From Paracoccus aminovorans (GTDB taxonomy: Bacteria; Pseudomonadota; Alphaproteobacteria; Rhodobacterales; Rhodobacteraceae): a stretch of 64,000 nt of DNA. Below the pieces are notes generated by a model. That model saw nothing but the letters and a program-made list of their open reading frames with translations. It ran no database searches and was not told where the DNA came from. Below are positions 9,072 through 45,280 of the stretch, in pieces. The DNA lies in the NCBI RefSeq assembly GCF_900005615.1, contig NZ_LN832560.1, positions 121,257 to 185,256 on the forward strand, read 5' to 3'. A program made the position numbers and the translations under genes. Position 1 is the first letter of the stretch. Each line of letters starts with the position of its first letter.

Positions 9072-9380
9072 CCGCGGCCCCGGCGCGCCGCCGTCGCGCG
9101 CCGCCCGGGACCGTGCTGCGATGCAGCGACTCAATGCCGCAGCTGAACGATCTTGCATCCGTCGGAAAAATTTCGGTGCGTCTCGGCCCCTGCGCGCTAT
9201 CATCTGCCGGACGCTCGCTCCGCGGCCTGCCCGAAGATCCATGAAACTGCTGGATTTTTTGGCACGGAATTCCCGTCAGGAAAACATTTCTCCCAGCGAG
9301 AAAGTTTCTCTTGAAGAAAGAGGCATTCCAGTGAATAAATTTCTTCAGAGCCTTCCATGGACCAGAATGGAGTAGAGAAC
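9072..9380 (+). promoter_or_regulatory. Intergenic promoter region of the mgsABC-gmaS operon
   Basis: About 310 bases without a credible gene. Its 3' half is AT-richer than its surroundings. It holds a perfect inverted repeat TTTCTC-N5-GAGAAA at 9287-9303 and, directly after it, TTTCTCTTGAAGAAA at 9305-9319, which fits the TTTC-N7-GAAA element seen at three other promoters in the window. A GGAG at 9369 serves as ribosome binding site for the ATG at 9381. Confidence 0.5.
9305..9319. promoter_or_regulatory. TTTC-N7-GAAA candidate operator before mgsA
   Basis: TTTCTCTTGAAGAAA, a 5-bp dyad (TTTCT/AGAAA). It matches the spacing of the elements at 26688, 33739 and 45249 in this window. The regulator is not proven; the XRE-cupin protein encoded at 33769 is the leading candidate because it has the same element before its own gene. 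Confidence 0.4.
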
Positions 9381-10268
9381 ATGTGCGGCATCGTTGGCCT
9401 GTTCCTGAAGAACGAGGAACTGCACCCCAAACTTGGGGACCTGTTGACAGACATGCTGATCACCATGACCGACCGCGGCCCCGACAGCGCCGGGATCGCG
9501 ATCTATGGTGACGACAGCAACAAACTGAAGATGACCATCCAGTCGGACACGCCCGAGGAAACCTTCCACGGGCTCGACAGCGCGCTGTCGCTGGCGCTGG
9601 ACGGTCCCGTCAGCATCCGCGTGATCGACACCCACGCCGTGCTGACCCTGCCCGAGGGCAGCGAGGCCCAGGCCCGCGCCTTCATGGCCGAAAAGGGCAT
9701 CCGCGTCATGGGCGCCGGTCATTCGATGGAGATCTTCAAGGAAGTCGGCCTGCCCAAGGACGTGGCCGCCCGCTTCCACGTGCGCGACATGGCCGGCAGC
9801 CACGGCATCGGCCACACCCGCATGGCCACCGAAAGCGCCGTGACCACGCTGGGCGCGCACCCGTTTTCGACCGGGGACGACCAGTGCCTGGTGCATAACG
9901 GCTCGCTCTCGAACCACAACCAGATGCGCCGCATCCTGACCGAGAAGGGCTTCAAGCCGCAGACCCAGAACGACACCGAGGTCGCCGCCTGCTACATCTC
10001 GTCGCGGCTGGCCGAGGGCGCCAACCTGGGCCAGGCGCTGGAAGGCACGCTGGACGACCTGGACGGGTTCTTCACCTTCGTCGTCGGCACCAAGAACGGC
10101 TTCGGCGTCGTGCGCGACCCGATCGCCTGCAAGCCCGCCGTCATGGCGGAAACCGACGACTATGTGGCCTTCGGCAGCGAATACCGCGCCCTGGCCAACC
10201 TTCCCGGCATCGAAAACGCCCGCGTCTGGGAGCCCGAGCCTGCCACCGTCTATTTCTGGGAACGCTGA
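9381..10268 (+). CDS. mgsA: N-methylglutamate synthase subunit A (GlxB-like class II glutamine amidotransferase)
   Basis: 295 residues. The protein begins MCGIVGLF, so Cys2 becomes the N-terminal nucleophile of a class II glutamine amidotransferase after Met removal; this fixes the start at 9381 rather than the in-frame ATG at 9357, and GGAG lies just upstream. The active-site HNGSLSNH motif is near residue 173. The subunit is the glutaminase-like part of the three-part glutamate-synthase-related enzyme (mgsABC, also called glxBCD) that makes N-methylglutamate from methylamine or gamma-glutamylmethylamide. It is followed by mgsB one base after the stop. The neighbouring gmaS supports this role over ordinary glutamate synthesis. 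Confidence 0.85.
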   Translation: MCGIVGLFLKNEELHPKLGDLLTDMLITMTDRGPDSAGIAIYGDDSNKLKMTIQSDTPEETFHGLDSALSLALDGPVSIRVIDTHAVLTLPEGSEAQARAFMAEKGIRVMGAGHSMEIFKEVGLPKDVAARFHVRDMAGSHGIGHTRMATESAVTTLGAHPFSTGDDQCLVHNGSLSNHNQMRRILTEKGFKPQTQNDTEVAACYISSRLAEGANLGQALEGTLDDLDGFFTFVVGTKNGFGVVRDPIACKPAVMAETDDYVAFGSEYRALANLPGIENARVWEPEPATVYFWER

Positions 10269-10269
10269 C

Positions 10270-10953
10270 ATGCAGACTATCGACCTTTCCACCACCCCGC
10301 TCCGCGAGCTGAACCAGGCCCTGCAAGCGCAGGCCGCCCAGACCAACCAGACCGAATGGGTGATCGAGAACCCGAAGGGCGCCCATGCCATCGCCGTCGG
10401 CCTGGACGCGCCGATCGAGGTGACCGTCAAGGGTTCGACCGGCTATTACTGCGCCGGCATGAACAAGCAGGCCACCGTGAAGGTCAAGGGCTCGGCCGGT
10501 CCGGGCGTGGCCGAGAACATGATGTCGGGCACCGTCATCATCGACGGCGATGCCAGCCAATATGCCGGCGCCACCGGCAATGGCGGCCTTCTGGTCATCA
10601 AGGGCAACGCCTCCAGCCGCTGCGGCATCTCGATGAAGGGCATCAACATCGTCGTCTTCGGCAATGTCGGCCACATGTCGGCCTTCATGGCGCAGTCGGG
10701 CAACCTGGTGGTGCTGGGCGATGCCGGCGACGCGCTTGGCGACTCGCTTTACGAGGCGCGGATGTTCGTGCGCGGCTCGGTCAAGTCGCTGGGCGCGGAT
10801 TGCATCGAGAAAGAGATGCGCCCCGAGCATATCGAGATCCTGAAGGACCTGCTCGAGCGTTCCGGCGCCGATGCCAAGCCCGAGGAATTCAAGCGCTACG
10901 GTTCGGCCCGCAAGCTCTACAACTTCAACGTCGATCACGCTGGTGCCTATTGA
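10270..10953 (+). CDS. mgsB: N-methylglutamate synthase subunit B (GltB C-terminal-like, GlxC)
   Basis: 227 residues dominated by the repeated Gly-rich beta-helix of the GltB C-terminal (GXGXG) domain, for example GSAGPGVAENMMSGTVIIDG and GNVGHMSAFM. In full-length glutamate synthase this domain is structural, linking the amidotransferase and FMN domains. Here it is a separate subunit, as in the known N-methylglutamate synthases. It starts one base after the mgsA stop, and its own stop sits 11 bases before mgsC, so the three are co-translated. Confidence 0.85.
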   Translation: MQTIDLSTTPLRELNQALQAQAAQTNQTEWVIENPKGAHAIAVGLDAPIEVTVKGSTGYYCAGMNKQATVKVKGSAGPGVAENMMSGTVIIDGDASQYAGATGNGGLLVIKGNASSRCGISMKGINIVVFGNVGHMSAFMAQSGNLVVLGDAGDALGDSLYEARMFVRGSVKSLGADCIEKEMRPEHIEILKDLLERSGADAKPEEFKRYGSARKLYNFNVDHAGAY

Positions 10954-10964
10954 TGAGGGACATC

Positions 10965-12290
10965 ATGGACAAGACCCCCCAAACCCTGCCGCGCGAGAGC
11001 TATACCTATTCGCCCAGCATCAACTCGGAAATCCGCCGCGCCGCCGACACCGGCATCTATGACATCCGCGGCGGCGGCGCCAAGCGCAAGGTCCCCAGCT
11101 TCGACGACCTGCTGTTCCTGGGCGCCTCGATCAGCCGCTATCCGCTGGAAGGCTATCGCGAGCGCTGCGACACCTCGGTGACGCTCGGCACCCGCTTCGC
11201 CAAGAAGCCGATCGAGCTGAAGATCCCGGTCACCATCGCCGGCATGTCCTTCGGCGCGCTGTCGGGCCCGGCGAAAGAGGCCCTGGGCCGCGGCGCCACC
11301 ATGGCCGGCACCTCGACCACCACCGGCGACGGCGGCATGACCAACGAGGAACGCGGCCATTCCGAGAAGCTGGTCTATCAGTATCTGCCCTCGCGCTACG
11401 GCATGAACCCCGACGACCTGCGCCGCGCCGATGCGATTGAAATCGTGGTCGGCCAGGGTGCGAAACCGGGCGGCGGCGGCATGCTGCTGGGCCAGAAGAT
11501 CACCGAGCGCGTGGCCAAGATGCGCAACCTGCCCATCGGCATCGACCAGCGTTCCGCCTGCCGCCACCCCGACTGGACCGGCCCGGACGACCTGGAGATC
11601 AAGATCCTGGAGATCCGCGAGATCACCAACTGGGAAAAACCGATCTACATCAAGATCGGCGGCGCCCGCCCCTATTACGACACCGCGCTGGCGGTCAAGG
11701 CGGGCGCGGACGTGGTCGTGCTGGACGGCATGCAGGGCGGCACCGCCGCGACCCAGGACGTGTTCATCGAACATGTCGGCCAACCGACGCTGGCCTGCAT
11801 CCGTCCCGCGGTGAAGGCGCTGCAGGACCTGGGCATGCATCGCAAGGTGCAGCTGGTGGTCTCGGGCGGCATCCGCTCGGGCGCGGACGTGGCCAAGGCG
11901 CTGGCGCTTGGCGCCGATGCGGTCGCCATCGGCACCGCGGCGCTGATCGCCCTGGGCGAGAACGACCCGAAATGGGGCGACGCCTATGCCGAGCTCGGCA
12001 CCACCGCCGACGCCTATGACGACTGGCACGAGGGCAAGGACCCGGCCGGCATCACCACCCAGGACCCCGAGCTGATGAAGCGCCTGGACCCGGTGACGGC
12101 GGCGCGGAAACTGCGCAACTTCCTTGCGGTCCTGACGCTGGAATGCCAGACCATCGCCCGAGCCTGCGGCAAGAGCCACGTCCACAACCTGGAGCCCGAG
12201 GATCTGTGCGCCCTGACGCTGGAGGCGGCCGCCATGGCCGGCGTGCCTCTGGCGGGGACCAACTGGATCCCTGGTCAGAGCGGCTTCTGA
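10965..12290 (+). CDS. mgsC: N-methylglutamate synthase subunit C (FMN-binding glutamate synthase domain, GlxD)
   Basis: 441 residues matching the FMN/Fe-S synthase domain of GltB as a stand-alone subunit. Visible motifs: GMSFGALSGPAKEA near residue 90, GGGMLLGQKI, LDGMQGG near 250 and SGGIRSGADVAKALALGADA near 300, which form the TIM-barrel flavin site. Three Cys near residues 390-412 (ECQTIARACGKS and EDLCAL) could hold an iron-sulfur cluster. The ATG at 10965 has GAGGGA 5 bases upstream; a weaker ATG lies at 10953. It catalyses the synthase half reaction of MgsABC. A hairpin with a T run follows the stop. Confidence 0.85.
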   Translation: MDKTPQTLPRESYTYSPSINSEIRRAADTGIYDIRGGGAKRKVPSFDDLLFLGASISRYPLEGYRERCDTSVTLGTRFAKKPIELKIPVTIAGMSFGALSGPAKEALGRGATMAGTSTTTGDGGMTNEERGHSEKLVYQYLPSRYGMNPDDLRRADAIEIVVGQGAKPGGGGMLLGQKITERVAKMRNLPIGIDQRSACRHPDWTGPDDLEIKILEIREITNWEKPIYIKIGGARPYYDTALAVKAGADVVVLDGMQGGTAATQDVFIEHVGQPTLACIRPAVKALQDLGMHRKVQLVVSGGIRSGADVAKALALGADAVAIGTAALIALGENDPKWGDAYAELGTTADAYDDWHEGKDPAGITTQDPELMKRLDPVTAARKLRNFLAVLTLECQTIARACGKSHVHNLEPEDLCALTLEAAAMAGVPLAGTNWIPGQSGF

Positions 12291-12301
12291 CAAGACCAGA
12301 A

Positions 12302-12331
12302 GGGCGGGGCATGCACCCCGCCCCGGCTTTT
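12302..12331 (+). terminator. Hairpin with T run between mgsC and gmaS
   Basis: GGGCGGGG, loop CATGCA, CCCCGCCC, then CGGCTTTT. This looks like an intrinsic terminator, but gmaS starts only about 30 bases on, so it may act as a partial terminator that lowers gmaS expression relative to mgsABC, or as an mRNA-stabilising stem. Confidence 0.6.
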
Positions 12332-12357
12332 CCGTAATTCAACAGGGACCAATCCAA

Positions 12358-13662
12358 ATGACCGATCTTGCCGAATTCGCCCGGGAAAAAGGCGTCAAGT
12401 ATTTCATGGTGTCCTACACCGACCTGGTGGGGGCGCAGCGCGCCAAGCTGGTGCCGACCTACATGATCAACAATGTCGTTTCCGGCGGTGCCGGTTTCGC
12501 AGGTTTCGCGGGCGGTTTCGTGCTGACCCCCGCCCATCCGGACATGCTGGGCATGCCGGATGCGGACACCGTCATTCAGCTGCCCTGGAAGCCCGAGGTG
12601 GCCTGGGTCGCGGCCAACCCCGCGATGTATGACAGCCCGCTGCCGCAGGCGCCGCGCAACGTGCTGCGCAACGTGATCGCCGAGATGGAAAAGGAAGGCC
12701 TGCGGATCAAGACCGGGGTCGAGCCGGAATTCTTCTTCCTGACGCCCGAAGGCGACCGCATCGCCGACACCCGCGACACCGCCGCCAAGCCCTGCTACGA
12801 CCAGCAGGCGATCATGCGCCGCTATGACGTCATCTCGGAAGTCAGCGACTACATGATCGAACTGGGCTGGGAACCCTACCAGAGCGACCACGAGGACGCG
12901 AACGGCCAGTTCGAGATGAACTGGAAATACGACGACTCGCTGGCGACGGCCGACAAGCTGGCCTTCTTCAAGTTCATGATGAAGTCGGTGGCCGAAAAGC
13001 ACGGGCTGCGCGTGACCTTCATGCCGAAGCCGTTCCTGGAGCTGACCGGCTCGGGCATGCACGCCCATATCTCGGGCTGGAGCCTGGACGGCAAGACCAA
13101 TGCCTTCTACGACGGCAACGACGAGCTGGGCCTGTCCGAGGTCGGCCACCACTTCCTGGGCGGCATCATGAAGCACGCCTCGGCGCTGGCCGCGATCACC
13201 AACCCGACCATCAACAGCTACAAGCGCATCAACGCGCCGCGCAGCTCGTCGGGGGCGACCTGGGCGCCGAACTCGGTCACCTGGTCGGGCGACAACCGCA
13301 CCCACCTGGTCCGCGTGCCGGGCAAGGGCCGGATCGAACTGCGCCTGCCGGACGGAGCCTCGAACCCCTACCTGCTGCATGCCGTGATCATGGCCGCCGG
13401 CCTGGACGGCATCCGCCACAAATGCGATCCCGGCAAGCGGCTGGACATCGACATGTATGCCGACGGCCATATGGTGAAGGACGCGCCCAAGCTGCCGCTG
13501 AACCTGCTGGACGCCATCCGCGCCTTTGACCAGAATACCGAGTTGAAGGCGGCGCTTGGCGAGGAGTTCTCGGCATCCTTCATCGAAATGAAGATGAAAG
13601 AGTGGAACGCCTATGCCTCGCACCTGACCCAATGGGAGCGGGATCACACCCTGGACATCTGA
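12358..13662 (+). CDS. gmaS: Gamma-glutamylmethylamide synthetase (glutamine synthetase type III-like)
   Basis: 434 residues with glutamine synthetase catalytic motifs: KTGVEPEFFFL near residue 120, NGQFEMNW near 182, GSGMHAHISG near 224 (the ammonia/ATP-site His region) and RIELRLPDGASNPYL near 325. GmaS ligates methylamine to glutamate with ATP, giving gamma-glutamylmethylamide, the donor for N-methylglutamate synthase. The family is often labelled type III glutamine synthetase (GlnT); the adjacency to mgsABC favours GmaS. An AGGGA ribosome binding site precedes the ATG. Cytoplasmic. Confidence 0.88.
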   Translation: MTDLAEFAREKGVKYFMVSYTDLVGAQRAKLVPTYMINNVVSGGAGFAGFAGGFVLTPAHPDMLGMPDADTVIQLPWKPEVAWVAANPAMYDSPLPQAPRNVLRNVIAEMEKEGLRIKTGVEPEFFFLTPEGDRIADTRDTAAKPCYDQQAIMRRYDVISEVSDYMIELGWEPYQSDHEDANGQFEMNWKYDDSLATADKLAFFKFMMKSVAEKHGLRVTFMPKPFLELTGSGMHAHISGWSLDGKTNAFYDGNDELGLSEVGHHFLGGIMKHASALAAITNPTINSYKRINAPRSSSGATWAPNSVTWSGDNRTHLVRVPGKGRIELRLPDGASNPYLLHAVIMAAGLDGIRHKCDPGKRLDIDMYADGHMVKDAPKLPLNLLDAIRAFDQNTELKAALGEEFSASFIEMKMKEWNAYASHLTQWERDHTLDI

Positions 13663-13694
13663 ACCACGCGGTCCACTTTGCCACGGTGAGGCAG

Positions 13695-13712
13695 AATTGG
13701 CTCAATTGGTTC
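13695..13712. promoter_or_regulatory. Tandem 9-mer repeat in the gntR promoter
   Basis: AATTGGCTC immediately followed by AATTGGTTC. The second copy is identical to an arm of the inverted repeat before tmm (ATTGGTTC at 15868-15875). TTGGT/ACCAA half-sites are typical of FadR-type GntR regulators, so this may be the autoregulatory site of the downstream gene. Confidence 0.45.
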
Positions 13713-13778
13713 CCTTTTGGACTAGCAGACCCCGGATCGACACGCTACAACTGGCGTATTGAAACCGGAGTCTGCATT

Positions 13779-14495
13779 TTGTCATCGCTCCCCCAATCAT
13801 CGCAACCCTCCACGCCCAGCAAGACCGGGCTTGGTTCCACGGTGCAGATGGTGGTGGATGCGCTCAGTGCGCGGCTGGCGGCGGGGGAATACCCGCGGGG
13901 CAGCCGGCTTCCCTCCGAGCGCCAGCTTGCCGCCAGCCTGCAGGTCGCGCGCAATACCCTGCGCGAGGCGCTGGACATCCTGGAGCAGCGCGGGCTGATC
14001 ACCCGCCGCGCCGGCGCCGGCTCCTATGTCGCCGAACCCGAGCATTGGGACAATGCCGTTCCCGTCGCCGCCGCCACCGGGCCGCTGCACCTGCATGTGA
14101 TGCGCGGCATCATGGAACCCGAGATCGCGCGGCTGGCCGTTCTGCACATGTCCTCGGCCGGCATTGAGGCCCTGGCCCGCATTCTGGACGAAATGCGCGC
14201 CACCTCGGACCCGGCGCAGTTCACCCGCTGCGAAGAGGATTTCCAGCAGAAACTGGCCGAAGGAACCTGCAATCCGCTGCTGATCGCCTGCTACAACCTG
14301 GTGGTGAAGGCGCGCCGCCAGCGCCATCGCGCCGCCATGCTGCGGCGGCTGACCACGCCCGAGCGCATGGCCTACCAGCGCCAGGTCCATGCCGCGCTGC
14401 TGAACGCGCTGGTCGGCCGCGACATCGCCGAGGCGACCGAGCTGGTCCAGCAAATGCTGATCGAGGAACAGCGCCTGCTCATGCAGGAGAACTGA
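13779..14495 (+). CDS. GntR family (FCD-type) transcriptional regulator
   Basis: About 238 residues. The N-terminal winged helix contains RGSRLPSERQLAASLQVARN and the recognition helix continues to TLREALDILEQRG. The C-terminal part is an all-helical FCD ligand domain (about residues 95-225). The frame has no suitable ATG; I chose the TTG at 13779 with GGAG 9 bases upstream. Flanked by gmaS and the tmm promoter, it is probably the local repressor of methylamine genes with a methylated amine or intermediate as ligand; both points are inference. Its 3' end overlaps the convergent gene on the other strand by 17 bases. Confidence 0.82.
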   Translation: MSSLPQSSQPSTPSKTGLGSTVQMVVDALSARLAAGEYPRGSRLPSERQLAASLQVARNTLREALDILEQRGLITRRAGAGSYVAEPEHWDNAVPVAAATGPLHLHVMRGIMEPEIARLAVLHMSSAGIEALARILDEMRATSDPAQFTRCEEDFQQKLAEGTCNPLLIACYNLVVKARRQRHRAAMLRRLTTPERMAYQRQVHAALLNALVGRDIAEATELVQQMLIEEQRLLMQEN

Positions 14496-15768: not shown

Positions 15769-15840
15769 CCCCTATCTGCCCGGATCCTTGCCGACTTCGG
15801 CAAAATTTCAAAGAAGCGTTCTTCTTCACAATAAAAATTC

Positions 15841-15907: not shown

Positions 15908-15927
15908 GGACCGCAGGGAGCAAGACA

Positions 15928-17268: not shown

Positions 17269-17279
17269 CCCCCCCGACT

Positions 17280-17311: not shown

Positions 17312-17328
17312 CGGCAATGGAGGCTCGC

Positions 17329-24596: not shown

Positions 24597-25640
24597 ATGA
24601 CCATTTCCTTCAACAAGGAAACCTTCCGCGGCGACTACAGCTATCACAATTCGCCCGCCGCGATCCGCCGCTTTCCCTTCCCCTTCGACCGCGACGAATA
24701 CATGTATTCGGTCAATATGGAGCCGCATCGCGCCGCCGGCCCCGACCACAGCGTGTTCCAGAGCCGTTTCGACGTGGACGAACACTATGTGTCCGAGATG
24801 GAGGATCGTGCCATCACCCTGTCCCGCGACCCCGGCCGCTGCCAGTCGCTGCCGCACATGACGCTTGCGGGCTGGGACGTGCTGGAACTGATCATGGTCT
24901 CGAAATCCGAGGATTACCCGGACCTGTTCGAGCTGCACCGCGACGGCGACCGCTGGCGCTGGGTGAACAAGCCGCTGGGCATCGACGACACGTTTACCTT
25001 TCTTGACGAAAGCACCCTGCCCTATGGGCCGCTGGAATACATCACCCGCCAGACCCAGGGCGATTTCGCCGTGCTGGACCAGCGCGAGAACAACCTGTGG
25101 ATGGATGCCGGCATGGTGACCTCGCAGGCCGACTGGAGCCTGGATTTCGACATCGGCATGAACTTCTTCGAATGGCACGCGCCGGTGCCGCGCGCGGCCG
25201 AGATGGGGATCTTCCAGCGCGCGCTGAAATTCCTGCTGAACGTCCAGCAGGACAGCCCGGCGCGCCGGCTGAACTGGACCATGACCGTGAACCCGCGCCT
25301 GGACACCAGCCCCGAGACCTATCCCGAATGGGGCCCGGAAAAGCGGACGCTGACGCCGGAAAACGTGGGCGAGAAGCAGTTCCTGCGCGTCGAGTTGCAG
25401 ACCTTCTTCCGGTTGCCGCGCTCGAACGGGCTGCTGTTCCCGATCCGCTGCTATCTCTGCGCGCTGCAGGACATCGTGACGGTGCCGAAATGGGGCCGCC
25501 GGCTGCATCGGGTGATCCGCGACGTGCCGGACGACCTGGCGACCTACAAGGGTTTCCTGGTCAACAAGCCGCTGATCGTCGAATACCTGTCGAAATTCGA
25601 CGACGGCGCCCCGACCTCGCCCGGCATCTACCCGGACTGA
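24597..25640 (+). CDS. dmmC: Haem-dependent oxidative N-demethylase subunit DmmC (DUF3445)
   Basis: 347 residues matching the DUF3445 / haem-dependent oxidative demethylase family: DHSVFQSRFDVDEHYVSEM near residue 45, VNKPLGIDDTFTFLD near 125 and FFRLPRSNGLLFPIRCY near 270. This is the catalytic subunit of dimethylamine monooxygenase, where O2 activation and N-demethylation occur. GGAGG lies 5 bases before the ATG. It ends 13 bases inside the convergent AraC-type regulator gene. Confidence 0.85.
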   Translation: MTISFNKETFRGDYSYHNSPAAIRRFPFPFDRDEYMYSVNMEPHRAAGPDHSVFQSRFDVDEHYVSEMEDRAITLSRDPGRCQSLPHMTLAGWDVLELIMVSKSEDYPDLFELHRDGDRWRWVNKPLGIDDTFTFLDESTLPYGPLEYITRQTQGDFAVLDQRENNLWMDAGMVTSQADWSLDFDIGMNFFEWHAPVPRAAEMGIFQRALKFLLNVQQDSPARRLNWTMTVNPRLDTSPETYPEWGPEKRTLTPENVGEKQFLRVELQTFFRLPRSNGLLFPIRCYLCALQDIVTVPKWGRRLHRVIRDVPDDLATYKGFLVNKPLIVEYLSKFDDGAPTSPGIYPD

Positions 25641-26596
25641 TCCCGCCGCCGGGCGGCCTGCCTGCGGCGCGTCGGGGGCATCCCGAACCGCGCCGCATAG
25701 GACCGCGAGAAATGGGCGGCGCTGGCGAACCCCGTCACCAGCGCCACGTCCAGCATGGACAGCGCCGTCTGCTGAACCAGCTCATCCGCCTTGCGCAACC
25801 GCATCTCGCGATAGAATTCCATCATCGAGGACCCCAGTTGATCGTTGAACAACCTCTGCAACTGCCGCGGGCTGCAGCCGACCTGCGCCGCGATCTGCTC
25901 GGGCGAGAGCGGGTCGGCCAGGTGGCTGAACATCAGGTCCACGGCCTGGGCCAGCAGAGGGTGGCGCAGGTCGAAGCGTTCGGCAACCGGGGATTGCTGG
26001 GGTTCGTCGGCATTGCGGGCGCGCGGGTGGATGAACCATTCGGCGACCTGCCGGGCGAAACCCGCGCCATGGTCGCGGGCGATCAGCGCGCACATCATGT
26101 CCAGCGCCGCGACCCCGCCGGCGCAGCTGTAGCGGTCGCGGTCGATGACGTAGAGCGCGCGCTCGATCAGCAGGTCCGGCCGATGCTCGGCCAGTGCATC
26201 GATATGGGCCCAGTGCAGGGTGAAGCGCCGGCCCTCCATCAGCCCCAGCCGCGCCAGGATCGCGGCCCCGCCCGAGATGCCGCCCAGCCGGACCTTGCGC
26301 GCCTGCAGCGCCCGCAGCCCCCGCGCCAGCGCCGGGTCGTCATAGCGCAGCGGGTTGCCGCCGGCGACGACCAGCGCCAGGTCCAGGCCCGCGGGCTCGG
26401 GCAGGGTGGCGGTGTCGAACCCGCCGCCCGAGGTCGAGGCGGCAAAGCCCCCCGGCACCGAATGATAGCTGGGCCGATACAGCGTCCGGCCTGCCAGCTG
26501 GTTCGCGGCCCGCAGCGGTTCGACCGCCGCGGTCAGCGACATCAGGGAATATTCCGGCGTCAGGATGAAGCCGATTCGCAGCGGTTCGTCTTGCAT
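25628..26596 (-). CDS. GlxA/CdhR-type AraC family regulator
   Basis: 322 residues: an N-terminal DJ-1/PfpI-like (class I glutamine amidotransferase-fold) domain (IGFILTPEYSLMSLTAAVEP at residues 8-27, GGISGGAAILARLG near 120) and a C-terminal AraC double helix-turn-helix (PEQIAAQVGCSPRQLQRLF near 240, FASAAHFSRSYAARFG near 290). Regulators of this layout control carnitine, glycine betaine and related methylated-amine genes. The ATG at 26596 has GAGGA upstream. It diverges from mgdABCD and is convergent with dmmC, so either operon may be its target. Confidence 0.85.
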   Translation of the reverse strand: MQDEPLRIGFILTPEYSLMSLTAAVEPLRAANQLAGRTLYRPSYHSVPGGFAASTSGGGFDTATLPEPAGLDLALVVAGGNPLRYDDPALARGLRALQARKVRLGGISGGAAILARLGLMEGRRFTLHWAHIDALAEHRPDLLIERALYVIDRDRYSCAGGVAALDMMCALIARDHGAGFARQVAEWFIHPRARNADEPQQSPVAERFDLRHPLLAQAVDLMFSHLADPLSPEQIAAQVGCSPRQLQRLFNDQLGSSMMEFYREMRLRKADELVQQTALSMLDVALVTGFASAAHFSRSYAARFGMPPTRRRQAARRRDQSG

Positions 26597-26645
26597 GGGG
26601 TCCTCTTGCCACAAAATTATCGTCACTGTCCCGTAAAGGCAATAA

Positions 26646-26703
26646 TTTGTCCTTCCAAGACAAATGTGGCGCAAAATCCAGCGTATCTTTCCTGTGAGGA
26701 AAG
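26646..26703. promoter_or_regulatory. Operators in the divergent AraC regulator / mgdA control region
   Basis: Two dyads in a 128-base divergent intergenic region. TTTGTC-N7-GACAAA at 26646-26664 is a candidate site for the adjacent AraC-type regulator. CTTTCCT-GTG-AGGAAAG at 26687-26703 is a perfect 7-bp dyad with the same arms as the dyad before the XRE-cupin gene (CTTTCCT-CGC-AGGAAAG at 33738-33754). Confidence 0.55.
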
Positions 26704-26724: not shown

Positions 26725-27975
26725 GTGAGATATTCGGGTTTTCGCGTCATCAAGGAGGCCCTGACGGGCCATAAGGGCTGGAAGCCGATCTGGCGCAATC
26801 CCGATCCCCAGCCCGCTTATGACTATGTCATCGTGGGCGGCGGAGGGCATGGCCTCGCAACGGCCTATTACCTGGCCACCACCTTCAAGAAGGCCCGCAT
26901 CGCGGTGCTTGAGAAAAGCTGGCTCGGCTCGGGCAACATCGGGCGCAACACCACCATCATCCGCTCGAACTACATGCTGCCGGGCAACGAGCCGTTCTAT
27001 GAATTCTCGATGAAGCTCTGGGAGAACCTGGAGCAGGAATTCAACTTCAACGCCATGGTCAGCCAGCGCGGCATCCTGAACCTGTGCCACACCGACGCGC
27101 AGCGCGACGCCTTCCGCCGCCGCGGCAACGCCATGATCTTCGCCGGGGCCGATGCGGAACTCTTGGACCGCGAAGGCGTGCGGCGCATGTATCCCTGGCT
27201 GAACTTCGACAATGCGCGCTTCCCGATCAAGGGTGGGCTGCTGCAGCGCCGGGCCGGGACGGCGCGCCACGACGGCGTCGCCTGGGGCTATGCCCGCGGC
27301 GCCGACCTGGCCGGCGTGGACCTGATCCAGAACTGCGAAGTCACCGGCTTCCGCATCGAGGGCGGCAAGATCCGCGGCGTCGAGACCTCGCGCGGCTATA
27401 TCGCCGCCGGCAAGGTCGGCGTGGCGGTGGCGGGCTCGTCGGGCCGGGTCATGGCCCAGGCGGGCATGCGCCTGCCGATCGAAAGCCACGTGCTGCAAGC
27501 CTTCGTCTCCGAGGGGCTGAAGCCGACCATCGACGGCGTCATCACCTTCGGCGCCGGGCATTTCTACGTCAGCCAGTCCGACAAGGGCGGGTTGGTCTTC
27601 GGCGGCGACATCGACGGCTACAACTCCTATGCCCAACGCGGCAACATGGCGGTGATCGAGGACGTGGCCCAGGGCGGCATGGCCCTGATGCCGGCCATCG
27701 GCCGGGCGCGGCTGCTGCGGGTCTGGGGCGGCATCATGGACATGTCCATGGACGGCTCGCCCATCATCGACAAGACGCCTGTCGAGGGCCTGTATCTGAA
27801 TGCCGGCTGGTGCTACGGCGGCTTCAAGGCCACGCCCGCCAGCGGCTATGCCTTCGCGCATCTTCTGGCCACCGACACGCCGCACGACACCGCCAAGGCC
27901 TATCGGCTGGACCGGTTCGCGCGCGGCTATCCCATCGACGAAAAAGGCATGGGCGCCACGCCCAATCTGCATTGA
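26725..27975 (+). CDS. mgdA: N-methylglutamate dehydrogenase / sarcosine oxidase beta-type subunit
   Basis: 416 residues, GTG start. FAD Rossmann motif VIVGGGGHGLATAYYLA at residues 35-51. RHDGVAWGYARGA places a His near residue 182, the position that binds FMN covalently in sarcosine oxidase beta subunits. Heterotetrameric sarcosine oxidases and N-methylglutamate dehydrogenases share this fold. The linked mgsABC/gmaS and the Zn-less delta subunit favour N-methylglutamate as substrate, releasing glutamate and a C1 unit. First gene of mgdA-B-C-D-folD (equivalent to soxBDAG). Sarcosine as substrate cannot be excluded. Confidence 0.82.
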   Translation: MRYSGFRVIKEALTGHKGWKPIWRNPDPQPAYDYVIVGGGGHGLATAYYLATTFKKARIAVLEKSWLGSGNIGRNTTIIRSNYMLPGNEPFYEFSMKLWENLEQEFNFNAMVSQRGILNLCHTDAQRDAFRRRGNAMIFAGADAELLDREGVRRMYPWLNFDNARFPIKGGLLQRRAGTARHDGVAWGYARGADLAGVDLIQNCEVTGFRIEGGKIRGVETSRGYIAAGKVGVAVAGSSGRVMAQAGMRLPIESHVLQAFVSEGLKPTIDGVITFGAGHFYVSQSDKGGLVFGGDIDGYNSYAQRGNMAVIEDVAQGGMALMPAIGRARLLRVWGGIMDMSMDGSPIIDKTPVEGLYLNAGWCYGGFKATPASGYAFAHLLATDTPHDTAKAYRLDRFARGYPIDEKGMGATPNLH

Positions 27976-33701: not shown

Positions 33702-33754
33702 GGATTGCAATTCGGCGCAATCCTCAGCAGAGTCCGGCTTTCCTCGCAGGAAAG
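33697..33754. promoter_or_regulatory. Terminator-like hairpin and TTTC-N7-GAAA operator before the XRE gene
   Basis: GCTGAGGATTGC / GCAATCCTCAGC (33697-33728) is a perfect 12-bp stem with an 8-base loop and no T run, probably ending the purU transcript. CTTTCCT-CGC-AGGAAAG at 33738-33754 is a perfect 7-bp dyad 15 bases before the XRE start, with arms identical to the dyad before mgdA. It overlaps the leader of the regulator gene, as expected for autoregulation. Confidence 0.6.
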
Positions 33755-33768: not shown

Positions 33769-34413
33769 ATGGCCAGGAAATCGGTCAGCCAGATGAAGCT
33801 GTCGCAGGACCCTCATGCCCTGCGCGACATTTCGGAAAAGAACCTCGAGGTGGCCATCGGTCGGGCGGTGCGCGAATTGCGCAAGCGGCAGCGCATGACC
33901 GGGGCCGACCTGGCGGCGCAGACCGGGCTGTCGGTCGGCATGCTGTCCAAGATCGAGAACGGGGTGATCTCGTCGTCGCTGGGCACCCTGCAGGCGCTGG
34001 CCAATGCCTTGCGCGTGCCGCTGATCCAGCTGTTCTCGAGCTATGCCGAGCCGCGCGGGGCCATGCATGTCAAATCCGGCCAGGGCGTCGAGATCGAGCG
34101 CGCGGGCACCCGCGCCGGGCACCAGTATCACCTGCTGGGCCATATCGGCTCGAACAACTCGGGGGTGGTGGTCGAACCCTACATGATCGTGCTGACGACC
34201 GAGAGCGACCGCTTCCAGACCTTCCAGCACGAGGGGATCGAGCTGCTCTACATGCTCGAGGGCGTCGTCACCTATCGCCACGCCGACCAGGCTTATCGGC
34301 TGGAGCCGGGCGATACGCTGCTGTTCGACGCCGATGCGCCGCACGGACCGGTCGAGCTGAACGAATTGCCGGCGCGCTATCTGTCGATCATCACCTATCC
34401 GCAGAGCAAGTGA
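33769..34413 (+). CDS. XRE family regulator with cupin domain
   Basis: 214 residues. The helix-turn-helix is GADLAAQTGLSVGMLSKIEN near residues 45-64, followed by a linker and a C-terminal cupin sensor (ELLYMLEGVVTYRHADQAY, then LEPGDTLLFDADAPHGP, near residues 160-195). XRE-cupin proteins sense small metabolites. It lies between the amine-oxidation and serine-cycle blocks, and a dyad before it matches those before mgdA and mclA, so it is the best candidate for a shared C1 regulator. The start is uncertain: 33769 is preferred, and the open frame reaches 33655. Confidence 0.82.
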   Translation: MARKSVSQMKLSQDPHALRDISEKNLEVAIGRAVRELRKRQRMTGADLAAQTGLSVGMLSKIENGVISSSLGTLQALANALRVPLIQLFSSYAEPRGAMHVKSGQGVEIERAGTRAGHQYHLLGHIGSNNSGVVVEPYMIVLTTESDRFQTFQHEGIELLYMLEGVVTYRHADQAYRLEPGDTLLFDADAPHGPVELNELPARYLSIITYPQSK

Positions 34414-35842: not shown

Positions 35843-35849
35843 GGCGATT

Positions 35850-36037: not shown

Positions 36038-36066
36038 ATGGTGCGTCCTGCCGTGGGCAGGCGCGA

Positions 36067-37359
<1,293 letters not shown>

Positions 37360-37372
37360 GCTGTCTCTCTCC

Positions 37373-40039: not shown

Positions 40040-41010
40040 CAGTTCACCCTGTCGCGGGGGTCGCGTCCTGCAAAGAAGTCCTCGAGATTGTCCAGGACGC
40101 GGAAGCCCATCGCCTCGCGCGCCTCGCGGGTGGCGCTGCCCAGATGCGGCAGCATCACCAGCCGGCCGCTGTTCTTCAGCGTGGGATTGATGTTCGGCTC
40201 TCCGTCGAAGACGTCCAGCGCGGCGCCGCCGATGGATTCGAAGGACAGCGCATGCGACAGCGCCATCTCGTCGATGACCTCGCCGCGGGCGGTGTTGATC
40301 AGATAGGCGTTCGGCCGCATCAGGTTCAGCCGGTGCGCGTTGATCAGGTGGCGGTTGGCCTCGCCCCCCGGGCAGTGCAGCGACACGAAATCGCATTGCG
40401 GCAGCAGTTCGTCGATGCTGTCGACCTGGGTGGCGTCGCAGCGGGCCAGGACCTCGGGCGCGACCGGGTGCAGGTTGTAGGCCAGGATGCGCATCCCGAA
40501 GCCGTGATGCGCGCGCTTGGCCATTTCCTGGCCGATGCGGCCATAGCCGACGATGCCCAGCGTCTTGCCGGTGACCTTGGTGCCGACCAGATGCGTCGGC
40601 CGCCAGCCGGTCCAGCGGCCGGCGCGCAGCTCGCGCTCGCCCTCGCCGGCGCGGCGGGCCACCATCAGCATCAGCGTCATCGCCAGGTCGGCGGTGCATT
40701 CGCTGAGCACGTCGGGGGTATTGGTCACGACGATGCCTTGCCGCCCCGCCTGTTCCAGGTCGATGTGGCTGTAGCCCACGCCGTAGTTGGCCAGAATCCG
40801 CGTTTGCGGCTTGTCCACCTCCAGCGCGGGCGCGCCGATCTTGTCGGTGACGGTGGGCAGGATTGCGTCGTATTTCCGCAATGCTGCCCGCAGATCCTCG
40901 GGTGCCAGCGGCTTGTCGGAAAGATTCAGCTGTGCGTCGAACTGTTCGGACAGCCGCGCCTCGACCGCTGCGGGCCAGCGGCGCGTGACAAGAACCCGAG
41001 GTTTCACCAT
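40039..41010 (-). CDS. hprA: Hydroxypyruvate reductase (D-2-hydroxyacid dehydrogenase)
   Basis: 323 residues of the D-isomer 2-hydroxyacid dehydrogenase family: NAD motif LGIVGYGRIGQEMAKRA near residue 150, the Arg in NTARGEVIDEMAL near 240, Glu in DVFDGEPNINP near 268 and catalytic His in LPHLGSATREARE near 288. Position between ppc and mtkBA identifies it as the hydroxypyruvate-to-glycerate step of the serine cycle; by sequence alone glyoxylate reductase is equally possible. Confidence 0.88.
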   Translation of the reverse strand: MVKPRVLVTRRWPAAVEARLSEQFDAQLNLSDKPLAPEDLRAALRKYDAILPTVTDKIGAPALEVDKPQTRILANYGVGYSHIDLEQAGRQGIVVTNTPDVLSECTADLAMTLMLMVARRAGEGERELRAGRWTGWRPTHLVGTKVTGKTLGIVGYGRIGQEMAKRAHHGFGMRILAYNLHPVAPEVLARCDATQVDSIDELLPQCDFVSLHCPGGEANRHLINAHRLNLMRPNAYLINTARGEVIDEMALSHALSFESIGGAALDVFDGEPNINPTLKNSGRLVMLPHLGSATREAREAMGFRVLDNLEDFFAGRDPRDRVN

Positions 41011-41022
41011 CTGTGCCTCCGT

Positions 41023-41904
41023 TTACTGCAGGACGCGGGCGATGGTCTGGCCGATCACCGCCGGGTTTTCGGCCATGGTGATGCCGGCCGCCGACAGGAT
41101 CTCGACCTTTTCCGAAGCGCTTTCCCCGAAGGCCGAGATGATCGCGCCGGCATGGCCCATGGTGCGGCCCTTGGGCGCGGTCAGGCCGGCGATATAGGCC
41201 ACGACCGGCTTGGTCACATGCTCGCGGATGTAGTCGGCGGCCTCGGCTTCCTGCGGCCCGCCGATCTCGCCGATCAGGCAGATGGCATGGGTGTCGTCGT
41301 CGTTCTGGAAATGCTCCAGCACGTCGCGGAAGGACGAGCCGTTGATCGGGTCGCCGCCGATGCCGACCGAGGTCGAGACCCCCAGCCCCAGCTCTTTCAG
41401 CTGCGCCGCCGCCTCATAGCCCAGCGTGCCCGAGCGGCCGATGATTCCGATATGGCCCTGCATATAGATGTGGCCGGGCATGATCCCCAGCATGGCCTTG
41501 CCGGGGCTGATGGTGCCGGCGCAGTTCGGGCCGGTCAGGATCATGCGGCGCTCTTTCGGATAGCGGTACATGTAGCGCTTGACGCGGATCATGTCCTGGG
41601 CCGGGATGCCGTCGGTGATGCAGACGCAGTAGTTGATGCCGGCGTCCGCGGCCTCCATGATGCTGTCGGCGGCAGCCGGCGGCGGCACGAAGACCAGCGA
41701 GGCCTGAGCCCCGGTCGCCTCGACCGCTTCCTTGACGGTGTTGAAGACCGGCACGCCCTCGCAGGTCTCGCCGCCCTTGCCGGGCACGACGCCGCCCACG
41801 ACATTGGTGCCGTAGTCGATCATCTCCTTGGTGTGGAAGCGGGCCATCTTGCCGGTGATGCCCTGAACGATGACGCGGGTTTCGCGATCCAGAAAAATGC
41901 TCAT
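41023..41904 (-). CDS. mtkB: Malate-CoA ligase subunit (SucD-like), malate thiokinase
   Basis: 293 residues of the succinyl-CoA synthetase alpha family: CoA-binding VIVQGITGKMARFHT at residues 12-26, LTGPNCAGTISPGKA near 120, and the phosphorylated His in GRTMGHAGAII near 250. In this operon, next to mclA, hprA and ppc, the pair is malate thiokinase, making malyl-CoA with ATP, rather than the TCA succinyl-CoA synthetase. Starts with ATGA overlap of mtkA. Confidence 0.88.
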   Translation of the reverse strand: MSIFLDRETRVIVQGITGKMARFHTKEMIDYGTNVVGGVVPGKGGETCEGVPVFNTVKEAVEATGAQASLVFVPPPAAADSIMEAADAGINYCVCITDGIPAQDMIRVKRYMYRYPKERRMILTGPNCAGTISPGKAMLGIMPGHIYMQGHIGIIGRSGTLGYEAAAQLKELGLGVSTSVGIGGDPINGSSFRDVLEHFQNDDDTHAICLIGEIGGPQEAEAADYIREHVTKPVVAYIAGLTAPKGRTMGHAGAIISAFGESASEKVEILSAAGITMAENPAVIGQTIARVLQ

Positions 41905-43100
41905 CAGACGGCCCTCAGGTTCGAGTTCTTCTTGACGTCGGCCTGCCATGCGGCGACGGCGCGTTCGGCGGCCTCCATCAGGGTGGTGGCGCGGATCAGG
42001 GGCAGGCCGGACTGGGCCAGGATCTTTTGCCCCTCTTCGACATTGGTGCCGGCCAGGCGGACGATGACCGGCACGTCCACCGGATCGTCGCGCAGCGCCT
42101 TGACGACGCCCTCGGCCACCCAGTCGCAGCGGTTGATACCGGCGAAGATGTTGACCAGGATCGCCTGCACGTTCTTGTCCGACAGCACCAGGCGGAAGGC
42201 CTTGGACACCCGCTCGGGCGTGGCGCCGCCGCCGATGTCGAGGAAGTTCGCGGGCTCGCCACCGGCCAGCTTGATCGTGTCCATGGTCGCCATGGCTAGG
42301 CCGGCGCCGTTCACGATGCAGCCGATGTTGCCCTCCAGCCCGACATAGGACAGGCCGCGGTCGGCGGCGCGGGATTCGCGCGGGTCCTCTTGCGACTTGT
42401 CGCGCAGCTCGCTGATCTGCGGGTGCCGGAACAGGGCGTTGTTGTCGAAGGTCATCTTGGCGTCCAGCGCCAGGATGCGGTCGTCCGAGGTCACCACCAG
42501 CGGGTTGATTTCCACCATGGTCGCATCGAGGTCGCGGAAGGCGCGGTAGCAGCCCATCAGCGTGCGCACCATCTGCTGGATCAGCGCCGGCTTGATGCCA
42601 AGCGCGAAGGCGATCTCGCGGGCCTGGAATTCGCGCAGGCCGACCGCCGGTTCGATCGCGGCGCGGACGATGCTGTCGGGCTTGTCGGCCGAGATCTCCT
42701 CGATCTCCATCCCCCCCTCGCCCGAGGCGACGATCATCACCCGCTGGCTGGCGCGGTCCAGGACGAAGCCCAGATAGATCTCGCGCAGAATCGGCACCGC
42801 GGCCTCGACATAGACGCGGTAGATGCCCTTGCCCTCGGGCCCGGTCTGATGCGTCACCAGCTTCTGACCGAACATGTTCTCGGTCACGTCCTGGATTTCG
42901 CTGTCGCTGCTGCAGACCTTGACGCCGCCGGCCTTGCCGCGGCCGCCGGCATGGACCTGGGCCTTGACCACCCAGCGGTCACCGCCCATCTCGCGCGCCC
43001 GGTAGGCAGCCTGTTCCGGGCTATAGGCCAATGCGCCGGTGGGAATGCCCACCCCGAACTTGCTGAGCAGTTCCTTGGCCTGATATTCGTGGATATCCAT
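41904..43100 (-). CDS. mtkA: Malate-CoA ligase subunit (SucC-like), malate thiokinase
   Basis: 398 residues: ATP-grasp N-terminus ([36 protein letters not shown]) and a C-terminal ligase domain ([31 protein letters not shown]). Same family as succinyl-CoA synthetase beta; the serine-cycle context and gene order mtkA-mtkB support malate-CoA ligase. GGAGG lies upstream of the ATG. The operon gap to the aminotransferase gene is 27 bases. Confidence 0.88.
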
Positions 43101-43127
43101 AAGTTCTCCTCCCTCCCCGTTACGGCC

Positions 43128-44375
43128 TTATTCGGCGGCAACCGCGGTGTCGTAGTGTTTCTGCAGGTTCTTCAGGACCGCGTCGGTGTCGACCTCGGCG
43201 CCGAAGTCCTTCAGGGCCTGGGCGAAGCGGGTGACGATGTCGGTGATCGACTGCTGGTTCAGCAGGTTCAGGATGCCGATGCGGACCTGGACCGGCTCGG
43301 ACAGCGTCGGCCAGATGCCGAAGCCCTTGGCGCGGCAGGCCTGCACCAGCTCGGCCTCGCGGCCCGCCAGCGCGCCGGGCAGGTTCAGCACCACCAGCGA
43401 GGTCATGTTCGAGGTGACCTCGCAGCCCATGGCGGTGACGGCATCGCGCAGCGCCGCCTCGTGGAACGCATAAGACTTGGCGCGGCCGGCGACCGTCTGT
43501 TGCAGCAGGATGCGCAGCGCCTCGTGGAAGGCGGCGACGGCATAGGCGCTGTGGGTGCGGTGATAGGTGCCCTTTTCCACGTCCTTGCCGTCGATGATGC
43601 CCCAGTGCCGGGCTTCGAGGATCGGGTGATGGACAAAGGTCCGGGTGCCGGTCTTGCGCAGGCTGTCGATATAGCGGTCGTTGAACGACACCGGCGCATA
43701 GGTCAGCGGCAGGCAGCAGATGCCCTTCTGCGGGCACGAGGCCCAGCCGGCCACGCCCGGATAGTCGTCGATGCGGAAGTCCTCGACCCCCAGCGACGAC
43801 ACCGCGTCGATCAGGCCCATCACGTCATGCTTCTGGCAGGCTTCCGAGAAGCCCTGGATGTCGTTGATGCGGCCCGAACCGGTTTCCCAATGCGCCATCA
43901 TCGCCCATTTCGGCTTGTGCTCGGCCAGCGCCGCCTCGACGATCTCGCCGGTGACGGATTGGCCGTGCGGCACGTTGACCACGACGACCGAGGCCGGTTT
44001 CGGGTCCAGCGGCGATGCCGCCAGTTCCTCGGCCGTGGCGGCCTTCATGCGCAGCGTCAGCCCGTCGATGCCCGAGAAGGTGCCGTTGACGAAGGCCACC
44101 ACCTTGTCGCCGGGCTGGACGGCGCTGAACAGGACGTCGAGCCCGCTCCAGCCGGTGCCGGCGACGCCGAAGGTGTAGACGTTCTTGGTCCCCATCACCT
44201 CGCGCAGCATCAGCTTGGCCTCGATCATGCCCCGCAGGACATCGGGCTGCATGTGGTCCGCCACCCCGGCGCTGGCAAAGCGCTGCAGCACGCGCGGGTC
44301 GGTATTGCCGGGTCCCGGGCCTGCTGCCAATGTGTTGGGGATTTCCAGCTGCGGAAAGATCGTCGCTTCGGTCAT
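43128..44375 (-). CDS. sgaA: Class V aminotransferase, predicted serine-glyoxylate aminotransferase
   Basis: 415 residues of the alanine-glyoxylate/serine-glyoxylate aminotransferase group: PGPGNTDPRVLQRF near residue 20, AHWETGSGRINDIQGF near 160, IDAVSSLGVEDFRIDD near 185 and the PLP lysine in CPQKGICCLP near 213. The usual PLP context in serine-glyoxylate transaminases is SGSQKG; here Cys replaces Gly-Ser and two more Cys follow. As first gene of the serine-cycle operon it most likely converts serine and glyoxylate to hydroxypyruvate and glycine. I chose ATG 44375 with GAAGGAAA upstream over the TTG at 44381. Confidence 0.75.
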   Translation of the reverse strand: MTEATIFPQLEIPNTLAAGPGPGNTDPRVLQRFASAGVADHMQPDVLRGMIEAKLMLREVMGTKNVYTFGVAGTGWSGLDVLFSAVQPGDKVVAFVNGTFSGIDGLTLRMKAATAEELAASPLDPKPASVVVVNVPHGQSVTGEIVEAALAEHKPKWAMMAHWETGSGRINDIQGFSEACQKHDVMGLIDAVSSLGVEDFRIDDYPGVAGWASCPQKGICCLPLTYAPVSFNDRYIDSLRKTGTRTFVHHPILEARHWGIIDGKDVEKGTYHRTHSAYAVAAFHEALRILLQQTVAGRAKSYAFHEAALRDAVTAMGCEVTSNMTSLVVLNLPGALAGREAELVQACRAKGFGIWPTLSEPVQVRIGILNLLNQQSITDIVTRFAQALKDFGAEVDTDAVLKNLQKHYDTAVAAE

Positions 44376-44414
44376 GCGCAATTTCCTTCAGTGCAAGTTT
44401 GTTTAACGGAACGA

Positions 44415-44496
44415 AACATGTTCTGGACATGTCTCACAACGTAAGATTATGCTGCATTGAGGTATCCATTCGGGCGGGGCAAAACCTACCCGAATG
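44415..44496. promoter_or_regulatory. Divergent control region between the serine-cycle operon and the LuxR-type gene
   Basis: Two 8-bp palindromes, AACATGTT (44415-44422) and GACATGTC (44426-44433), have centres 11 bases apart, one helix turn, as expected for a dimeric or paired LuxR-type regulator. CATTCGGG-N14-CCCGAATG (44467-44496) is a further perfect dyad close to the regulator start. Both are candidate sites for the adjacent regulator controlling itself and the serine-cycle operon. Confidence 0.5.
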
Positions 44497-44512
44497 TATA
44501 GGGAGGAAGAAT

Positions 44513-45208
44513 ATGGGCCAGCATTTGCCGCCCCAGGGCGCCGGTTCGGGTCTGGACCGGCCGATGCGGACCGTGCGCAGCACCGAAACCGCAATTCCGG
44601 TGATTCTGGCCGACAGCAATCCGCTGGTCCTGTCCGCCATGTCCGAGGTGTTCGAGCGCGACGCGCGGTTCTCGCTGCTGGCGACATCCGCCACCGCCGA
44701 GGGCTTCCTGACCACCGCCCGCCGCGTGCCCGCCCGGGTCGGCATCGTCGACTGGGACCTGCCGGAAATGGGCGGCGCCCGGCTGATGGAACAGCTGCGC
44801 GAACAGGAGGACGCGCCCCGCATCATCGTCTATGCCCGCGAATCCAGCCAGGGCCACATCTCGGCCATGGGCGCGGGCGCGGCGGGCTTCGTCTCGCGCC
44901 ATGGACCGGTCGAGGCGCTGCTGGACACCTGCGTCGCCGTCGCCGCCGGGCGGATGGTGTTTCCCTTTCTCGACGTGCGCGAATTGCAAAGGAACCCGCT
45001 GCATTCGCTGTCCCGGCGCGAGACCGACATGCTGTCCGCCCTGGCCCGAGGCATGACCAACCGCGAAATGTCAAAAGAGCTGGGAATTTCCCCCAATACG
45101 GTGAAGTTCCATTTGTCGAACCTTTATGACAAGCTGGCGGTGAAAAGCCGGGCTCAGGCGATCGCCTTTTTCTACTCGCAGCAACAGGGGGGGAATGCGC
45201 GGGGATAG
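44513..45208 (+). CDS. LuxR/NarL-type response regulator
   Basis: 231 residues: an N-terminal extension of 30, a receiver-like domain (IPVILADSNPLVLSAM near residue 30; phosphoacceptor region VGIVDWDLPEMGG near 80) and a C-terminal LuxR helix-turn-helix (LSRRETDMLSALARGMTNRE near 165, GISPNTVKFHLSNLYDKL near 190). The usual acidic pair is reduced to one Asp, and the conserved Lys after GAxGF is replaced (GFVSRHG), so phosphorylation may not work normally. No histidine kinase gene is adjacent. GGGAGG precedes the ATG. Placed to control the serine-cycle genes on both sides. Confidence 0.82.
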   Translation: MGQHLPPQGAGSGLDRPMRTVRSTETAIPVILADSNPLVLSAMSEVFERDARFSLLATSATAEGFLTTARRVPARVGIVDWDLPEMGGARLMEQLREQEDAPRIIVYARESSQGHISAMGAGAAGFVSRHGPVEALLDTCVAVAAGRMVFPFLDVRELQRNPLHSLSRRETDMLSALARGMTNREMSKELGISPNTVKFHLSNLYDKLAVKSRAQAIAFFYSQQQGGNARG

Positions 45209-45209
45209 G

Positions 45210-45280
45210 AGACGTCGTCTAGGACTTTTCTCCTTGTCAGAAATTTTATTTCTTGACAGGAAATAGAAATATTCTTTCCT
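45210..45280 (+). promoter_or_regulatory. mclA promoter region with TTTC-N7-GAAA element
   Basis: AT-rich stretch. TTTCTTGACAGGAAA at 45249-45263 differs at one arm base from the dyads before mgdA and the XRE gene, and includes TTGACA, a possible -35. A related TTGTCAGAAA lies just upstream in inverted orientation (45234-45243), CTTTCCT recurs at 45274-45280, and AGACG-T-CGTCT is a small palindrome at 45210-45220. Confidence 0.5.

Follow-up and report, generated by a model that had tools for sequence, protein, structure and literature searches.

In Escherichia coli, the XRE-cupin protein PuuR is associated with a glutamine-synthetase-like enzyme that gamma-glutamylates amines. In the available sections of PMC7901475, the Pseudomonas XRE-cupin proteins PauR, PsdR and ErfA are described as local inhibitors with palindromic sites, small regulons and suspected autoregulation; their consensus sequences are said to differ among themselves, and PauR acts on amine genes that include a gamma-glutamylation pathway. 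We report here on an XRE-cupin protein of Paracoccus aminovorans, encoded by a gene called xre below, which lies among genes for methylamine use in a 64-kb stretch of DNA (the window, i.e., all of the stretch that was analysed: contig NZ_LN832560.1, positions 121,257 to 185,256), and on a 15-bp palindrome found before xre, mgsA, mgdA and mclA. To judge from sequence comparison, the XRE-cupin protein is very probably the binder of this palindrome, and we consider it likely that the palindrome, in its strict form TTTCYT-N3-ARGAAA, is the operator through which the protein would act as a self-regulating, metabolite-released repressor of the mgs operon.

The N-methylglutamate pathway is a principal route by which methylamine is used in soils and in the sea. 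Action on its genes has been shown, in the literature that we found, only for TmaR and, at tmm, for TmoR, in one marine species (PMC13390433). TmaR, an AraC-type protein encoded beside mgd, is the master activator of methylamine genes in Ruegeria pomeroyi; a search of the main text of that study for words that begin with XRE, cupin or motif gave none. Regulators of the XRE, GlxA and FadR families recur in the methylamine clusters of Rhodobacteraceae (PMC7574528), and the XRE gene of these clusters presumably corresponds to the one studied here; the accessible part of that paper gives no role, target or operator for it. We found no paper in the open-licence literature giving a role or site for the XRE-cupin protein, and a 2025 atlas of XRE motifs, partly accessible to us, may contain the motif (PMC12565409).

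The palindrome and the XRE-cupin protein

A sequence-only reading of the window had proposed that four promoters of one-carbon (C1) metabolism, those of mgsA, mgdA, xre and mclA, share a TTTC-N7-GAAA dyad of constant spacing. All four copies are present where predicted (Table 1) and are the only matches in the window, for an expectation of 0.14 (the mean of 100 shuffled windows, among which 4 matches were never reached). The mgdA and xre copies do have, as had been noted, identical 7-bp arms (CTTTCCT/AGGAAAG) with different 3-base centres (GTG and CGC, respectively). In a genome scan, as suggested by the same reading, the loose form is not rare (45 sites genome-wide versus 26 for the backwards control), whereas the strict form has only 4 exact sites in the 4.04-Mb genome, three of them at the C1 promoters of mgdA, xre and mclA and the fourth within a glutaredoxin open reading frame (ORF) outside the window. 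The mgsA site is one mismatch away from the strict form. When one mismatch was allowed, we obtained 17 sites genome-wide, 4 in the window and 13 outside, against 10 for the backwards pattern. ORFs around the outside sites were called by codon-position GC; two of the 13 had no locus, and the 11 inspected comprised 8 sites in ORFs and 3 in intergenic DNA or doubtful ORFs (L009, L133, L136), one of which (C1:2786934) is the pair ahead of a permease operon described below. With up to two mismatches, the window contains 11 matches versus 2 backwards ones (both with one mismatch). Seven of the 11 precede mgsA (two), tmm, mgdA, xre and mclA (two); the others are the second type of mgdA box discussed below (26648) and matches located elsewhere (2440, 57321 and 59356).

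The 214-residue protein has the layout of the XRE-cupin family, with an N-terminal HTH_3 domain (residues 34-85) and a C-terminal Cupin_2 domain (residues 149-207), both above the Pfam cut-offs. In 81 sequences, residues 55-65, corresponding to the recognition-helix region, are nearly invariant with the exception of position 56, as are cupin residues such as H154, E158 and H192. The closest solved relative is 1y9q, both by sequence and by Foldseek search with the predicted model. This model is of middling quality (mean pLDDT 70, pTM 0.49) and supports only the domain layout; an inference of the ligand from the structure was dropped, the best Foldseek matches being 1y9q and HppE-type folds with a root-mean-square deviation of about 15 Å.

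ScfR/RamB regulators are long proteins. They are described in the accessible part of PMC10370305 with paired near-identical boxes separated by an 18-bp spacer. An identity or operator of this type was rejected, the protein having 214 residues and the palindrome being single at xre and mgdA.

Distribution of the site in Paracoccus and other Alphaproteobacteria

In a sample of 385 alphaproteobacterial genomes, MgsA was detected in 52 (E-values up to 1e-80) and the XRE-cupin protein in 44 (up to 1e-55). Fifty-one mgsA upstream regions were read, leaving out that of the window; one of them was only 127 bp long. A site with at most one mismatch was present in 16 of the 33 genomes with XRE versus 1 of the 18 without (Fisher p 0.0018, uncorrected for relatedness), and the backwards pattern in 1 of 49 regions and in neither of two added ones. 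The gene lies beside mgsA in 25 genomes (two of them recognised via local search only), of which 14 have the site, and elsewhere in the genome in 8, of which 2 have it. The single site-bearing genome in which no XRE was found (G475) is assembled in 440 contigs, and its genus-mates G302 and G398 do have XRE.

Relatives of the XRE-cupin protein are encoded on 586 contigs, of which we fetched the 80 best (1,404,523 bp in total). As these 80 were picked for holding the XRE gene, they show the placement of sites in clusters and not their frequency elsewhere in those genomes. A match to mgs, gmaS, mgd or dmm proteins was present at 75 of these 80 loci, and xre lay within 500 bp upstream of mgsA in 40. 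We recovered 5 exact and 45 one-mismatch hits (0 and 7 with the backwards control), and 47 of these 50 fell within 250 bp of a mapped start: 26 at mgsA, 11 at xre, 7 at dmmD and 3 at tmm. The comparison of orthologous promoters thus upholds a link between the site and this protein. The remaining three hits are located elsewhere. One-mismatch sites away from any mapped gene start were seen at L079:4328 and L099:18638. Counted by promoter, a site within 150 bp and with at most one mismatch precedes xre in 11/80 cases, mgsA in 22/62 (2 exact), dmmD in 7/17 and tmm in 3/5; under the same thresholds no site was found at mgdA (0/45), gmaS (0/52), tdm (0/6) or purU (0/6) in these contigs.

Among 125 Paracoccus genomes, 32 encode XRE and 31 MgsA, with 30 encoding both; XRE occurs without MgsA in G022 and G113, and MgsA without XRE in G063, an assembly of 170 contigs. 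We read the promoter of the main xre copy in each genome (32 genes). Ten of the 14 closer orthologues located apart from mgsA have a site of their own with at most one mismatch and at most 60 bp from the start, in which the arms are constant and the centres vary. With the co-occurrence of the mgsA site and XRE, this favours the earlier suggestion that the XRE-cupin protein would be a self-regulating binder. Of the 30 Paracoccus mgsA promoters read, 14 contain a site with no more than one mismatch. Two gene orders are seen in Paracoccus (L016-L041): an xre that stands alone mostly carries a site of its own, and one that immediately precedes mgsA lacks it.

When 124 regions upstream of mgsA, all from genomes with XRE and in part from species represented twice, were searched for 4-bp mirror repeats without use of the proposed motif, GAAA-N5-TTTC (40) and TTTC-N7-GAAA (37) came first, shuffled regions reaching 5; taken together, these two repeats correspond to two 15-bp sites located 20 bp apart, an arrangement that the mgsA operator often shows. 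The 20-bp offset was conspicuous by its matching score, which was 8.11 of 12 in 27 Paracoccus mgsA promoters, versus 3.46 (standard deviation 1.10), and 6.24 in 46 other mgsA promoters, versus 3.28 (standard deviation 0.86). Since xre has a single site, the 15-bp palindrome itself would be the binding unit. In the window, mclA carries a 20-bp pair of which one member is weak, and the mgsA set is less regular.

The same pair occurs outside the window, where TTTC-N7-GAAA is found twice (C1:2786934), 98 and 78 bp before an operon (L295:1535-4569, G000:C1). Its products are two small proteins that belong to no known family and a transporter resembling ethanolamine permeases (187.7 bits for a cut-off of 381.75). 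This transporter is only distantly related to the trimethylamine N-oxide (TMAO) permease-like protein of the window (22% over 241 residues). The first small protein is present in 14 of the 125 Paracoccus genomes, all 14 of which encode XRE, and the operon is divergent from xre in G010, G055 and G056 and from mgsA in G012. In four of the five genomes whose operon has a site, a second TTTC-N7-GAAA follows 20 bp on. From these contexts, the unlinked permease operon is probably a target of the XRE-cupin protein in P. aminovorans.

The mgdA site is exact, at -37, in 4 of 30 Paracoccus promoters (G000, G013, G120 and G012); in a fifth genome (G043) a site with one mismatch lies at a different position, -127, and the four XRE-lacking genomes among the 30 have neither. 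Together with its absence, at up to one mismatch, from the 45 mgdA promoters of the fetched contigs, this makes N-methylglutamate oxidation a local addition to the regulon, and mgdA was set aside as a core target. Another box, TGTCY-N5-RGRCA, is present with at most one mismatch in 28 of the 30 promoters (backwards 0/30), its form having been chosen after viewing the same promoters, and is often doubled about 21 bp apart. Repeated boxes at about this distance are a typical arrangement for AraC proteins. TmaR, itself of the AraC type, activates mgd and is encoded next to it, and the window has an AraC-type gene with an HTH_18 domain, divergent from mgdA, whose family and position make it TmaR-like; by analogy, we regard these boxes as probably the site of its product. 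When two mismatches were allowed, TGTCC-N5-GGACA matched the window at some 60 places, mostly outside promoters, and these matches were not used to propose targets.

A putative repressor and competing explanations

One dimer of the XRE-cupin protein would bind one 15-bp palindrome, and the two sites 20 bp apart at mgsA would place two dimers, perhaps cooperatively, on the same face of the DNA. The protein would in this way repress its own gene and the mgs operon, and additionally mgdA, mclA and probably the unlinked permease operon here, and dmmD and tmm in relatives. Release could follow the binding of gamma-glutamylmethylamide or N-methylglutamate to the cupin domain, these being the most likely ligands in what is a guess from the pathway. 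We favour repression because the sites lie 15-22 nt before the start codons of xre and mgdA and because the Pseudomonas XRE-cupin proteins studied are inhibitors, as far as the available sections of PMC7901475 go. The single regulon drawn by the sequence-only reading, which covered N-methylglutamate synthesis, N-methylglutamate oxidation and malyl-CoA cleavage, is partly supported: a single proposed XRE operator at several C1 promoters and the synthesis branch through mgsA hold up in the sequence comparisons, whereas oxidation through mgdA is local and mclA is lineage-limited. The content also differs by the addition of dmmD and tmm in relatives and, probably, of the permease operon here.

Several observations weigh against this interpretation. 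Even with one mismatch allowed, no site precedes mgsA in 17 of the 33 XRE-bearing alphaproteobacterial genomes and in 16 of the 30 XRE-bearing Paracoccus genomes, 13 of the latter having a two-mismatch form, and the genomes are related, so that the p-values overstate their independence. None of the 12 xre genes directly upstream of mgsA (within 60 bp) has a site with up to one mismatch, none of the 6 distant Paracoccus orthologues (about 63-65% identity) has a site within 200 bp, and no paired site was found at xre. Among the 14 permease operons, only 5 are preceded by a site within one mismatch of the strict form (backwards control 0/14). The score of the 20-bp offset at mclA (6.06) is unremarkable, other offsets being equally high. 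Finally, a scan of the four promoter regions gave no sigma-70-like promoter, so that the sites cannot be placed relative to the transcription start.

The AraC-type, TmaR-like protein could be proposed as the binder of the palindrome instead of the XRE-cupin protein, since in R. pomeroyi TmaR binds its own promoter as well as those of tmm, tdm, dmm, gmaS-mgs and mgd (PMC13390433) and a gene of its family adjoins mgdA in the window. We find this very unlikely: the palindrome stands at xre in most closer orthologues with their own promoter (10/14), it tracks the presence of XRE (16/33 versus 1/18), and it is absent from most mgdA promoters, which TmaR strongly controls and which bear the different conserved, often doubled box. 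It is unlikely, too, that binding of the XRE-cupin protein to the site activates mgsA and mclA, with repression confined to xre. The position of the mgsA sites, 37 of 38 TTTC-N7-GAAA copies beginning 58-124 bp ahead of the start codon, would leave distance enough for an activator, and the overlap with TTGACA at mclA is compatible with activation or repression; the inhibitory role of the Pseudomonas proteins and the closeness of the xre and mgdA sites to the start codon speak against it. The number of loose sites in the genome, not even twice that of the backwards control, would agree with short AT-rich mirror repeats arising by chance within AT-rich promoters, an explanation that is scarcely credible given the hits in the 80 contigs, the co-occurrence with XRE and the sites of the xre orthologues, all of which contradict it.

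For mclA, one promoter of the close mcl type was compared from each of 28 genomes (that of L204, from a genome without XRE, has masked bases). With no more than one mismatch allowed, the site is present in 14 of the 21 genomes that have XRE and in 0 of the 7 that lack it (p 0.0058, again uncorrected for relatedness). The mclA site is confined to certain lineages, and it overlaps a -35-like TTGACA that is also present without the regulator, TTGAC being retained with few exceptions across the 28 promoters, XRE-lacking genomes included. It may therefore be a -35 element with chance flanks and no part of the regulon, which would leave the proposed operator role at the other genes untouched; the lack of a distinct 20-bp repeat across mclA promoters points the same way. 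We hold this to be the less likely possibility, given the restriction of the full site to XRE-bearing genomes and the additional weak site that lies 20 bp ahead of it in the window. A second mcl gene on contig 4 (L227, G000:C4:695475-696446), whose protein is 99% like that of the window, has no site and sits after what appears by eye to be the end of folD.

Features of the window and comparison with known regulators

The methylamine part of the window comprises mgsA, an mgsB/C-like ORF, gmaS, a GntR-FCD gene, a binding-protein gene, tmm- and tdm-like genes, a TMAO-permease gene (NF053774 above cut-off), dmm-like genes, mgd genes, folD, purU and an ammonium transporter. Serine-cycle-type genes are glyA, a phosphoenolpyruvate carboxylase-like ORF (below cut-off), that of a malate-CoA ligase, and mclA. 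Methylamine gene names were given from families and gene order with the help of the accessible text of PMC4543880 and PMC13390433. A single open frame of 644 residues (10356-12290) spans the apparent mgsB and mgsC, which are separate pieces in some relatives. The GntR-FCD gene (13602-14495), near tmm, is TmoR-like by family and position, and a response regulator with a LuxR-type DNA-binding domain (44330-45208) lies between the serine-cycle-type genes and mclA.

Table 1. Coordinates in the window of the sites and genes discussed in the text.
Feature	Position	Strand	Basis or remark
Weaker site before mgsA	9269..9283	+	2 mismatches
N9 variant TTTC-N9-GAAA, between the two mgsA sites	9288..9304	+	sequence
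Putative operator before mgsA	9305..9319	+	TTTC-N7-GAAA match; at most 1 mismatch in some relatives
mgsA, first gene of the mgs-gmaS run	9381..10268	+	class II amidotransferase-type matches below curated cut-offs; name from gene order
gmaS	12358..13662	+	TIGR03105 (type III glutamate-ammonia ligase) above cut-off; name from context
Candidate weak site before tmm	15821..15835	+	2 mismatches
AraC-type regulator gene, divergent from mgdA	25628..26674	-	HTH_18; GbdR-like below cut-off
Two TGTCY-N5-RGRCA boxes before mgdA, at a distance of 21 bp	26627..26662	+	kept in Paracoccus; apart from the putative XRE operator
Putative operator before mgdA, 22 nt from assumed GTG start	26688..26702	+	TTTC-N7-GAAA match
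mgdA (SoxB-like)	26725..27975	+	TIGR01373 above cut-off
Putative operator before xre, 15 nt from ATG	33739..33753	+	TTTC-N7-GAAA match, exact strict form
xre, XRE-cupin regulator, 214 residues, proposed binder	33769..34413	+	HTH_3 and Cupin_2 above Pfam cut-off
Weaker site, 20 bp upstream of the mclA site	45229..45243	+	2 mismatches
Putative operator before mclA, overlapping -35-like TTGACA	45249..45263	+	TTTC-N7-GAAA match
mclA, malyl-CoA lyase-like	45317..46291	+	CitE/malyl-CoA lyase-type matches below curated cut-offs; name by resemblance

We tentatively propose, as a possibility short of an expectation, that the XRE-cupin protein is a third, undescribed regulator of the N-methylglutamate route, encoded beside mgsA across Alphaproteobacteria, sensing a gamma-glutamyl or N-methyl intermediate through an operator for two dimers spaced by 20 bp, and extended in some Paracoccus to malyl-CoA lyase and the permease operon. 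If so, the permease operon would be an amine uptake system, tying together amine uptake, oxidation and one-carbon assimilation, and the protein could account for the sensing of a monomethylamine-derived catabolite that the TmaR study could not identify. The site would mark a little-studied control circuit for methylamine use. With a putative operator defined in sequence, a candidate protein and a set of presumed target promoters that includes the remote permease operon, the idea of a third regulator can be put to a direct test, and the small size and well-behaved family of the protein offer an entry to the inducer question left by the work on TmaR.

Compared with PauR, PsdR and ErfA, the protein has the same two domains and a putative palindromic site, but its presumed targets are methylamine genes of Alphaproteobacteria. 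It resembles PuuR in its association with an amine-gamma-glutamylating enzyme, but it scores 52.5 bits against the PuuR equivalog NF007408, for a cut-off of 211, and so is not PuuR. TmaR and TmoR of R. pomeroyi control genes of the same pathway but belong to other protein families; AraC-type and GntR-FCD genes, of the TmaR and TmoR families, are both present in the window together with that of the XRE-cupin protein.

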